From assembly GCA_021292105.1 (NCBI GenBank), contig CM037867.1, forward strand, positions 12,548,183 through 12,612,182: a stretch of DNA of 64,000 nucleotides, read 5' to 3'. The notes under the pieces are model-generated. The model made no database searches. It saw only the letters and a list, made by a program, of their open reading frames with translations, and had not been told where the DNA came from. This document shows, in pieces, positions 30,790 through 64,000 of the stretch (the first letter of the stretch is position 1; each line of letters opens with the position of its first letter). The DNA comes from Anadara kagoshimensis. Taxonomy: Eukaryota; Mollusca; Bivalvia; Arcoida; Arcidae. Position numbers and translations under genes: made by a program.

Positions 30790-30868
30790 GACCGAACCCA
30801 GTAGTTACGACGTAGTATATCCCGCAAGTATTGTTGGGAAGGTCTTGGGTTCGAGTCTCGGTTTGGTC
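30790..30868 (+). tRNA. tRNA-like sequence (degenerate, probably SINE- or pseudo-tRNA)
   Basis: The 79-nt segment has seven pairable end bases (GACCGAA with TTTGGTC, one G-T pair) and a good B box (gggttcgagtctc). The D arm lacks the usual GG, and no normal 5-bp anticodon stem with a 7-base loop forms, so it is unlikely to be a working tRNA. The minus strand reads RDSNPRPS, a string often produced by translation through tRNA-derived repeats. Confidence 0.35.
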
Positions 30869-31499
30869 GCTGTATTTTTCTTTCCCTATTGCATTTTGAG
30901 GCTCGCCCAACCCTGGTCTTGGAAGTGACCGACAAACAGATAGCTATATCGCAACATACACGTTATACGGCAACGATTGTTTTGTTAGCAAAGGATTTAA
31001 GGATTATTAGGTCAGTCGTGATTAAATTCTGCTATGAACTCAACATCAACAACAGGGAGGAGGGGTCATGTGCATGTGTTATGGAACGGTTGCGGCTGTT
31101 TACAGGCTAATTTAACCACCAAACCTCATCATAATGCATTAACAGATCACTTGCGATTTATTCGTCTTCTTCTTACTAAACCTATGTAAAGTTGTCCTCA
31201 GTGGAGATCCTTTAATGCGGTTTGACTGAACATTTTTAAGTTTCGGCGGGCGCCATACTTGTTTATGTTGTAAACAAGTGGGTGCTTATGCGCATGTCTG
31301 CAAACATTGGCTGTCACACTTGTGACGTCACGAGTCATCAGAGAGAAATTCAAGTTTCCATTCAGGTGTGCAAAAGGGGTTATTTCAAAATTTCTCCGTA
31401 ATTAGTGATTCGATTTTTGAAAGAAATACGGCGTTCGTCTCACGGAAAGGAGTTTATTAAAATATGTTAATATCGTTTTTCATTGTACTTACACTTTAA

Positions 31500-60262: not shown

Positions 60263-62703
60263 GTGAGACTATGATACCGGTGTTGAGAGACTATCCGCTT
60301 ACCAACTAAATCACCACCATCAACAAAAATAGGGGAGGGTAAACATTAAAATTGATAATGCATAAGATATGCAATTCTACTTTAACATATATATTCTACA
60401 GTTTTCTGTCTGTAATGTTATTTGTTACTTTTGAATATGTAGTTTAAAAAATGCATCCAAAAGTATGCCATTGATACTTTTGAATGTAACATTTCATAAA
60501 AATTCAAAAGTAGCAAATGACAGTAATATGGATGGATTGTGGTCGATTCTAAAAAATAAACAATCCAGGGTTTTAGGTCTGTCTGTATTCGTATGCTATT
60601 TGGCAATGGGTGATCCCTATAATTGGCCATTGGTAGATTTTAGATGTCTAAGGATTAAAGAATCAAGTTTCTCATTCTTATTAGTCTATATACAAATAAA
60701 AACGTTTACACGGAGTTTAAGGGCATAATAATATATAGATGTACATTGCATGCGGATTATAATTAATAATGTTTAAATGTGTGGTATTTTTGTAGTGATA
60801 TGTCAGCTAAGATTATAAAGTTATTGATAATTCTCCAAATATAAACAGTCCTGAGTGCCTTGGGACCAATGGTCAACATAAATCAAGATATAGAAGAGGG
60901 GATTTTCCTAAGAGACTAGTGATGCATGTAGTTGTCATCCACGAGTACAAATAAAGTCCAGTTAATCCTTACTAACGACATCAAATCCTAAGAACAAATA
61001 TTTTCAACTGGAAAATGCGAAAATCACCCACCTTCCATGACAACAAGCAGGTCGAAGGTCCCGTGTACCCTTTACCAAAATCATTGCCATATACATTTTT
61101 ATTGTATTTTATGATTTTTTTTAAATCTATTTGACAGCACAATCACATGTTAAAATGAACAGAAGAGTAAATATCAGCTTATACCTTTCGCTGGAGTTTT
61201 TAACATTGGCTAAATGGCTCATTTTTTGCTCCAATATCCCCTGCACGCTGTACCATAGTGATCTAGTACTGTTATAATTGGTTTACACACATTTTGCATC
61301 AAATCTTGTCTTTTGTGCTAGTTGTGTTTGTCATTTTTTGGGTGAATCGACTGATATGCCATTTGAAATATTTGATTTACTCTTAAAATTCAATTACATG
61401 ATGTATTTTAGGTGTGCCTAAAAAATGTTAAAAATGACTTTCATTTCCTGCTGCTTTTTGATTTAAATGTTTAAAATTCCGTTTTAGGTGTTCCATTAGA
61501 AATATGGCAAATGACACATTCTTCTCACAAAATGATGCACATGCGGCCATGATAAACCAAAGTATACCAGTGATAATGAAAAATGGGGCTGCAGCTTACT
61601 CGGAATGTGAAAGATACCAGATTCCAGCGAATTACACCAATAGTATAAGAGTTGAACAACAAACAGAAAACTGTGATAGTTGGGTATACGACAAGTCCGT
61701 GTTTGAGAAAACTGTCATATCTGAGGTCAGTCATGATTTTTATAACTAAAAGTCACTATAACACCCAGTCTCGATTTTCGAACAATTTATGGAGCATTTT
61801 TTGTTTGATATTATATTGTGATACCTGCAAATTTGAACAAATAGTATCTTATTATAATACCTGTATGTACAATGTGTTTCATTAAGGTACCGCGTGATGA
61901 ATACATCCATGTTTTGTAGAACGTTATCAAAAGTAACGACTGTTAAATATTCAAAAATAGATAATTTGTCTATAAATTGATAAGACGTTTTTCTTTCTGT
62001 ACACCGGGCTCCATTTAAACCCAATTTTATGTTTATTCAAAGTATTAAATTGCTTTAAGTAATTTAAATTAAGAGGATGTTAAAGAGAATTTTATACCAG
62101 ACCCAGCATGTGTCAATTGATCATGCATCATGGATGTTTGAAAAAAAAATAATTTTCCATTTTCACCAAAACAGTCTGGAGTTTTAGTCAGTTCGATGGC
62201 ACCAGAATAATTTCTAAATTTGACAAGTTTAATAATTATTGCAAGTTGAAATTAAAATACTATATAACCAAGGGTATTGTTTCAGTCTAGCATAAACGAT
62301 ATACAAATGTATCTAAAGACAAATCTATCATGTTACTATAACTTAAAGTGGTACATATAATAATTCAGTCAAGTTTTTTTTAGGAGAAATGCATAAATTG
62401 TAAATTGAAATCTTGAACCAAAACAAATTTAAATATATCATAGCTAATAAATCGAATACAAATCATGAACCCCAGCCTAATCACAAGCTACTGTTTTTGA
62501 ATTTTTTTATACGAATTCCGCGGTCTAAAGGTTTAACTTGGAAAGAAAATATTATATAATTTTGGAAATGAAAGACTGACAAAAATGTTTCTTTTACAGA
62601 TGAATCTTGTTTGTAATGACCTTATTGATCAGTCCCACGCTGGAATGATTTACTTCTGTGGTCTACTGTGTGGTGCCTTCTTCATGGGTATATGTGCAGA
62701 TAT
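60033..62703 (+). CDS. SLC22-family organic ion transporter, first three coding exons (partial gene)
   Basis: Major-facilitator transporter of the SLC22 (OCT/OAT/OCTN-like) group; members move organic cations, anions or carnitine across the plasma membrane. The three joined exons (60033-60262, 61488-61725, 62600-62703) give residues 1-190 plus two bases of codon 191. Seen: an acidic N-terminus, then the family-like GEFGRYQK (residues 40-47), a first membrane segment (about 47-70), a large extracellular loop (about 71-155) with cysteines at 78, 117 and 139 and N-glycosylation sequons at N85, N100 and N125, the motif SEMNLVCND (155-163), and a second membrane segment (about 172-188) ending in CAD. 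SLC22 proteins usually have about 550 residues and 12 membrane segments, so roughly two thirds lies beyond the window. Splice phases agree (2, 0, 2). The start is the ATG at 60033, with G at -3 and +4. The substrate cannot be told from this part. Confidence 0.9.
60413..60525. repeat. foldback repeat in intron 1 of the transporter gene
   Basis: Arms 60413-60436 and 60502-60525 pair over 24 bp with three differences, all T-G in the + strand sense. A smaller hairpin (caaaagtat / atacttttg) lies in the loop. A partial relative is at 56110-56172. Probably a small MITE. Confidence 0.55.
61488..61725 (+). CDS. SLC22-like transporter, coding exon 2
   Basis: It follows a T-rich acceptor ending ttttag (61487) and ends in GAG before the donor gtcagt (61726). 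It encodes the large extracellular loop typical of SLC22 proteins, with cysteines at residues 78, 117 and 139 and sequons NDT, NQS and NYT. Reading continues into exon 3 in phase 0. Intron 2 is 874 bp, with no other feature seen in it. Confidence 0.85.
62600..62703 (+). CDS. SLC22-like transporter, coding exon 3 (104 nt)
   Basis: The acceptor is ttttacag (62599) and the donor gtacgt (62704). It encodes MNLVCND followed by the second membrane segment and ends after CAD plus AT, just before where the family motif D-x-FGR(R/K) is expected. From memory, a 104-nt exon at this place is also found in vertebrate SLC22 genes, which supports the splice sites. The next exon was not found before 64000, so intron 3 is at least 1.3 kb and holds the miniature LTR element. 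Confidence 0.85.
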
Positions 62704-62748
62704 GTACGTAGTTCAGATAAAGTTGACATTACACACACGAGTACAAAT

Positions 62749-62767
62749 CACACACACACACACACAC
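62749..62767 (+). repeat. (CA)n microsatellite
   Basis: 19 bases of CA repeat, with a short acacacac run just upstream at 62731, 46 bp after the exon 3 donor. Confidence 0.9.
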
Positions 62768-63029
62768 GCCCGCGTGCGCGAGAATGGTTGGTTAAGGTTT
62801 GGGGCAGTTCTAGAGACACAAATTGCAATTGCCCCCGATGTCTGACAATCGAGCAACTATAATTATTTTCACATAATGCCCAAATGTTAATTAATCAGAA
62901 CTTACAATCAGCAGGCCACTGACAGTTTGTTGCACGGGGGAATTGGGAGAAAAATGTATGGTTCCAAAATTGAGGCTATATATAGTTGCTTTCTTCAAAA
63001 TGTATTTACTTGCACTTAATATCCCATTT

Positions 63030-63170
63030 TTACTATATGTGTGCCTCTCAATTACCCGGCTCACTTCCAAGGTGAAATTTTAAGTGTTTAATTTCATGCC
63101 AGTTTTCATCCAAAGTTTTACTAAGCTTTTGCGATGGCGTTTTGAACATGGGTCGGGTATGTTTGCATAT
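63030..63170 (+). mobile_element. R1 3' fragment (sense) in intron 3
   Basis: tgcctctcaattacccggct, cacttccaaggtgaaatttt, tttcatgccagttttcatcc, gaacatgggtcgggtatg. Decayed but ordered. Confidence 0.55.
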
Positions 63171-63295
63171 GATTACACAGAAGCTAGAAAGCATTTGGGT
63201 GATGCACCATTACAAGTTAATAGATTTGCATATGTGGGTGGACATTATATTGAACAACAACTCGTAAAAACCATAATAACTGCAATTTGTACGCA

Positions 63296-63504
63296 TGTAA
63301 CAGGAGGGAGGAAACACCAGAAAAAACACTTCCTCACCGAGTGCCCCGGCTGAGGATCGAACGCGGCCCTCCCGGGTGAAAAGCGAGCGTTCTACCACAA
63401 GGCTAAAAGATCCGGACCAGAAAGTCTGGCAGTAAATCACTCTATTATATCTACTACATGTATATACAACACAACAACACCACGACTAGCTCAGTTCCGC
63501 TACA
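63296..63504 (-). repeat. TRIM long terminal repeat A (3' LTR of the minus-strand element)
   Basis: 209 bp, TG...CA termini on the minus strand. Its A box is at 63387-63405 and B box at 63352-63363. Confidence 0.7.
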
Positions 63505-63584
63505 TTCCTCCCCTGTTATCTTGAGATTTCCCACCTTGGAAATCTCACACACAACCCCTCCGTGGGTTTTTTGTTGGGCGCCAA

Positions 63585-63740
63585 TGTAACAGGAGAAAGG
63601 AAACACCAGAAAAAAACACTTCCTCACCGAGTGCCCCGGCTGAGGATCGAACCGACCCTCCCGGATGAAAAGCGAGCGTTCTACCACAAGGCTAAAAGAT
63701 CCGGACCAGAAAGTGTGGCAGTAAATCACTCTATTTTACA
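63585..63740 (-). repeat. TRIM long terminal repeat B (5' LTR), internally shortened
   Basis: 156 bp, nearly identical to LTR A over the shared part. A box at 63676-63694, B box at 63642-63653 (closer to consensus than in LTR A). About 53 bp present in LTR A near its outer end is missing here. Confidence 0.7.
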
Positions 63741-64000
63741 CGATGACAATAATACAGTTCAAAATAATGTGTAAAAATGAAATTAATTGTTTAAAATATA
63801 CTAGAGTATAACAATAAAAATAATTTCATATTGTATAACAAATAAATAAATGAATAAATCAAGACTTTGTCAGGTAAATTAAAGAAAATTCATTCATTAA
63901 AAAATAATATAACCAGTAACTATTCATATAGCAGTTTAAAAATAATGCAATTGATTATTTTATTAAAAATACACGATCAAAATCTAGTATCATTTTCGAA
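63741..64000. other. intron 3, no recognisable feature
   Basis: AT-rich to the end of the window; exon 4 of the transporter gene is not seen. Confidence 0.5.

Follow-up and report, generated by a model that had tools for sequence, protein, structure and literature searches.

The window analysed here, a stretch of 64,000 nucleotides from the genome of Anadara kagoshimensis, contains at its end a damaged copy of a genuine miniature retrotransposon with tRNA-like ends. This copy occupies 445 bp (positions 63740 to 63296, with the minus strand as its sense strand), and is best explained, with a probability of roughly 0.85, as a TRIM of the Helenus type, which has no proteins of its own and is moved by those of another element. 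Its 80-bp interior leaves no room for the genes of transposition proteins, and its size, about 500 bp when complete, is that of a TRIM.

The original prediction described paired LTRs, a primer-binding site directly after the 5' LTR and a polypurine tract directly before the 3' LTR, and all of these are located on the minus strand of the 445 bp (Table 1). Boxes A and B are likewise found in each LTR at tRNA spacing, with 43 bases from the start of one to the start of the other in the complete LTR. The LTRs are evident as direct repeats (63295-63449 versus 63584-63738), with an identity of 94-100% per block and about 95% overall across 155 bases, and the longest exact repeat is 49 nt, whereas single-letter shuffling of these 1201 bases, done 200 times, never gives more than 16 nt. 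That one LTR is shortened was also seen correctly (156 versus 209 bp), and the alignment refines this to an internal 53-bp deletion. The shortened LTR begins with TGTA; as an alternative to internal deletion, its true end may have been lost, and the TGTA may be there by chance. A G precedes the box B-like motif in the 5' LTR, such that GGTTC is intact there, versus CGTTC in the 3' LTR. The two LTRs differ at 5 of the 148 compared sites (K2P 0.035), and the copy is therefore not among the youngest. As predicted, no matching 4-bp target duplication flanks it (ATCG before, TGCG after). The motif that adjoins the 5' LTR, TTGGCGCCCAAC, is a putative tRNA-Lys primer site.

Table 1. Features of the element copy in the window, listed in the sense direction of the element
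Feature	Position	Strand	Basis and remarks
5' LTR, shortened, 156 bp, ~53 bp missing near outer end	63585..63740	-	alignment
Box A-like TAGCCTTGTGG, 5' LTR	63684..63694	-	sequence and box motifs from PMC10886601
Box B-like GTTCGATCC, 5' LTR	63644..63652	-	sequence; preceded by G
7-T run, 3' of box B, 5' LTR; Pol III-type terminator	63610..63616	-	sequence and family count
Primer-binding site TTGGCGCCCAAC, adjoins 5' LTR	63573..63584	-	sequence, genome junction count, copy comparison
Interior, 80 bp	63505..63584	-	begins TTGGCGCCCAAC, ends AGGGGAGGAA
Polypurine tract AGGGGAGGAA, adjoins 3' LTR	63505..63514	-	sequence, copy comparison
3' LTR, complete, 209 bp, TGTA...TTACA	63296..63504	-	copy comparison, alignment
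Box A-like TAGCCTTGTGG, 3' LTR	63395..63405	-	LTR motif scan
Box B-like GTTCGATCC, 3' LTR	63354..63362	-	preceded by GCGTTC; GGGTTC in most copies
6-T run, 3' of box B, 3' LTR; Pol III-type terminator	63321..63326	-	LTR motif scan

The element was also predicted to lie in an intron, antisense to a host gene. The antisense orientation is likely, given a plus-strand stretch upstream of the element (from 59961 on) which matches SLC22 transporters (E 1.2e-7); the intron is unproven, as no downstream exon emerged. A second plus-strand stretch, from 62537 on, has a weak SLC22 match (E 0.76), and a Pfam search of the neighbouring frames gives no match of the SLC22 type.

The genome of the host (1.115 Gb in 36 contigs) contains at least 46 matches to the full element, with 40 of 1816 candidates scored, and 44 of the 46 extend over 432 or more of the 445 bases, including both LTRs and the interior. 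They are thus not merely single tRNA-like units, the outcome which the original prediction had set against itself. The interior alone has at least 40 matches (40 of 285 candidates scored). The exact junction between LTR end and primer site occurs 111 times and the exact 3' end of the LTR 417 times, and the reversed control of each occurs 0 times. On contigs C1 and C2, which were compared by hand and for which both lists are complete, 27 of the 34 exact LTR ends are more than 300 bases away from any exact primer-site junction; these are candidate solo LTRs, some of which may be elements with an altered primer site.

The copies measured are the best-scoring matches together with exact primer-site junctions, a choice by which young, well-kept copies are over-represented; 78 of the 100 junctions listed fall in the loci that were read, and 33 of the 111 lie outside the sample. 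From 100 BLAST hits, 98 were usable and yielded 83 distinct units, 52 of which have two complete LTRs (31 being dropped by filters on ends, length and identity, with the flanks unused), and these divide into 15 tandem and 37 stand-alone copies. The interior is 80 bp long in 23 of the 37 stand-alone copies and 67-88 bp in the remainder, and 35 carry the exact primer site, by which many of the copies had been chosen. The polypurine tract which Helenus carries before its 3' LTR is present in the family, as nine or more consecutive purines directly before the LTR in 35 copies, and exactly as AGGGGAGGAA in 28. The LTR pairs are 78% to 100% identical, with two pairs at 100%, such that some insertions are recent.

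Several loci display other arrangements. A tandem array at L081:223-1457 (within G000:C17:30477300-30479000) comprises seven units of about 147 bp after one full LTR, each unit being an interior plus an LTR without its tRNA-like core. At G000:C3:42927000-42928698 the LTR 3' end recurs every 105 bases or so, 17 times in all. Locus L082 contains two primer-site junctions 3342 bases apart with identical upstream 200 bases, in which a window-type LTR is found only at the very end. Matches to microRNA families (Rfam) in locus L035 fall within repetitive, A+T-rich DNA beyond the element and were set aside.

The insertion signature is the most direct record of how the family has spread. A genome search for 4-bp target duplications, proposed with the original prediction, reveals an exact one around 32 of the 37 stand-alone copies and a 5-bp one around none, whereas shuffling the flanks among copies (2000 trials) gives 2.0 4-bp duplications on average and never more than 8. 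The five copies without an exact duplication mismatch at one base (three copies), two bases (one) or four (one). Six copies (L034, L040, L063, L069, L072 and L078) have identical 20-base flanks, nearly identical in two others, and here the element was thus probably carried inside another repeat or a duplicated segment; when copies with shared flanks are counted once, 26 of 31 independent insertions have an exact 4-bp duplication. The 4-bp duplication of Helenus in animals is therefore a property of the family, although the window copy has none. The copies record a process of the integrase type, operating over a long time and up to recently. Taken with the primer site, the polypurine tract and the TG...CA ends, the 4-bp duplications support tRNA-primed reverse transcription and integration in trans as the presumed route.

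The LTRs carry the tRNA-like boxes of Helenus (box A TRGCY..YGG and box B GGTTC). Among the 74 LTRs of the stand-alone copies, TTAGCCTTGTGG is present in 58 and GGGTTCGATCC in 56. Boxes A and B lie 43 bases apart in 41 of the 46 LTRs, out of 62, that could be measured with the strict motif patterns used. The 10-bp blocks with boxes A and B are conserved at 98.1% and 97.8%, versus 91-98% for other blocks, and conservation across copies does not by itself set the boxes apart. After box B, a run of at least four T follows in 36 of the 5' LTRs and in every 3' LTR of the 37 copies (33 and 35 of them, respectively, run to six T or more), and the longest interior T-run reaches three T in 36 copies and four T in the other. 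ARAGORN finds no tRNA in the window, and does not call the tRNA-like part of the family a tRNA in the window or in loci L050 and L005; Rfam does not recognise it either, in window positions 62500-64000 (E up to 10) or in L050, L005, L001 and L035 (E up to 1), and its 4 matches in those window positions are all below the gathering scores and are taken as chance. Among 22 loci, ARAGORN reports no tRNA in 21, and the single call, in L047, belongs to a different element. The latter (L047:396-750) is a divergent tRNA-like element with a different interior, and one of its LTRs is called tRNA-Ile.

A second family in the same genome carries this architecture further, and is little more than a tRNA-like gene with the ends of an element. 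A search with the element of this family that forms part of the chimera described below yields at least 45 matches at 88-100% identity (40 candidates scored out of 3646), and the family is apparently larger than the window family; four copies and a chimera were read out of these matches. In the four copies, the LTRs are 103-104 bp long and consist mostly of a tRNA cloverleaf and a T-run, in the order TGTAGC, tRNA-like fold, T-run and TTTCCTGTTACA. Six bases alone precede the tRNA-like unit, and there is no upstream region of the window type. All four copies have exact 4-bp duplications (TTAG, GCTA, TAGG and CATA). ARAGORN calls tRNA-Tyr(AUA) in all eight of their LTRs, and Rfam assigns 30.3-47.5 bits to tRNA (threshold 29) in all four LTRs of two of the copies. 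As these calls illustrate, tRNA-like LTRs can inflate counts of tRNA genes. The local alignment of a window-type LTR (from L050) with a second-family LTR scores 50, where 300 single-letter shuffles reach 41 at most; the two have their ends and box order in common, but in the window-type LTR the part upstream is longer and the fold has decayed.

At least one event, whether template switching, a nested insertion or recombination in the genome, has joined the two families. The chimera is found on the minus strand of two duplicated loci (approximately L075:1616-2116 and L076:1594-2094), and is composed of a partial window-type LTR whose outer part is missing, its primer site, eleven bases and a complete second-family element. 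The primer site of the latter is TTTGGGGGCTCGTCCGACC, which resembles a tRNA-Pro primer site. At another locus (L046:2340-2890), a solo window-type LTR lies in the opposite orientation inside the LTR of an older second-family relative, with CCTG on both sides. In the window itself, positions 30836-30939 match the LTR end and the start of the interior of the second family at 75%, with a box B-like GTTCGAGTC, and are probably an old relic.

The most interesting point is the terminator in both LTRs, and the need for read-through which it brings. Pol III transcription of the element would begin with the binding of Pol III factors at boxes A and B of the 5' LTR, and would start just upstream of box A. 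Since each LTR has its own terminator, transcripts from the 5' LTR should mostly stop before the primer site, and a Pol III-type terminator in both LTRs of both families means that a full-length RNA needs read-through. The simplest reconciliation with the terminator of the 5' LTR is read-through by a minority of polymerases, which would pass the first T-run and stop at that of the 3' LTR, thereby producing an RNA that has the same sequence at each end. To judge from the conserved sites, the priming of reverse transcription at TGGCGCCCAAC would then fall to a tRNA, probably tRNA-Lys, and that of the second strand to the polypurine tract. The reverse transcriptase and integrase of an autonomous element, in animals probably of the Gypsy type, would insert the DNA with a 4-bp duplication, and this is the signature seen in the copies. 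The solo LTRs and tandem arrays that are observed would come later, probably via recombination between LTRs. More tentatively, and at somewhat less than even odds, the LTR may be a complete Pol III gene, with promoter and terminator and almost no U3, as the second family would suggest. If so, short tRNA-like RNAs would be made from both LTRs by default, and the genomic RNA would be a rarer product, made only by read-through at the 5' terminator. This would be the Pol III equivalent of what retroviruses do when they disregard the poly(A) signal of the 5' LTR.

The strongest alternative, though an unlikely one, is a TRIM whose transcription by Pol II begins in the U3 of its LTR, and in which the tRNA-like stretch is the passenger of an old SINE insertion. 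A TATA-like motif, which lies some 60 bp before box A and is present in the 3' LTRs of 21 of the 31 independent insertions (at LTR position 39 in the window copy) is consistent with such a promoter, the tRNA-like stretch of the window family no longer scores as tRNA, and the T-run would hinder read-through by Pol III. Yet a Pol II poly(A) hexamer is found in 1 of these 31 LTRs and a T-run of at least four in 73 of the 74 LTRs, and in the second family, which has the tRNA-like unit and the T-run, the upstream region is wholly absent. It is more doubtful still that the tRNA-like part serves for packaging or primer mimicry rather than for transcription. The second-family LTR does fold as a near-complete tRNA, which exceeds the needs of a promoter; however, the corresponding part of the window family is not scored as a tRNA and yet retains the boxes in the majority of LTRs, with some of its insertions being recent, and in the available text on Helenus the tRNA-like part is not complementary to the primer site (PMC10886601). 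Two adjacent tRNA-derived SINEs or a local tandem duplication, which might account for the tRNA-like boxes and the arrays of related units, are hardly credible in view of dispersed copies with like paired structure, primer site and polypurine tract: a tRNA-derived SINE is a single unit, without paired LTRs and with duplications of variable length, and two neighbouring SINEs are ruled out by the paired LTRs and the 32 exact 4-bp duplications, which fit insertion by an integrase.

The Helenus-type TRIM thus remains the preferred reading, and its known relatives allow the window family to be placed. Helenus elements, as portrayed in the available text of their description (Kojima 2024, PMC10886601), are TRIMs with tRNA-derived sequence in their LTRs, a primer site, a polypurine tract and, in animals, 4-bp duplications. 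They measure 311-1263 bp and occur also as solo LTRs, as several families per genome and, in zebrafish, as tandem arrays. Their hosts include bivalves, with five orders of Pteriomorphia, where the primers include tRNA-Lys and tRNA-Pro; mobilisation in animals is attributed to Gypsy-type elements, and a working Pol III promoter is expected, not proven. The likeness to Helenus drawn in the original prediction agrees with this account on the structural features tested, by structural description and not by published family sequences: each has paired LTRs that contain boxes A and B, a putative primer site, a polypurine tract and the 4-bp duplication, and occurs also as solo LTRs and in tandem arrays. 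The window family also falls within the size range of Helenus and shares its genome with a second such family. The two-family chimera and the array of LTRs without a tRNA-like core find no mention in the same text. The literature searched yielded no second primary report of Helenus, the word being contained in a meeting report of 2026, and the target duplications and copy structure described here are thus an independent check on an element class with one primary report in that literature. The presence of two such families in one genome makes it testable whether genomic RNA is produced by Pol III despite a terminator in both LTRs.

Other small elements share part of this design. The Cassandra and Ajax TRIMs have the promoter of a small-RNA gene within their LTRs, as does the window family, yet this promoter is derived from 5S rRNA and not from tRNA, and the duplications of Ajax are of 5 bp, according to the consulted text of PMC10886601. 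Cassandra further has terminators in its LTRs and tandem arrays in the portion of PMC7215508 consulted, where the like arrangement of terminators accompanies 5S sequences, such that this arrangement is not unique. The biv-TRIM elements of bivalves (Satovic 2019, PMC6934838) share with the window family their paired terminal repeats of miniature size, and both occur as solo repeats and as tandem copies, but no clear primer-binding site was identified in biv-TRIM, and the main text of that report does not contain the term "polymerase III". The window family fits best as a clear further example of the Helenus kind, named in 2024, rather than as a new kind of element.
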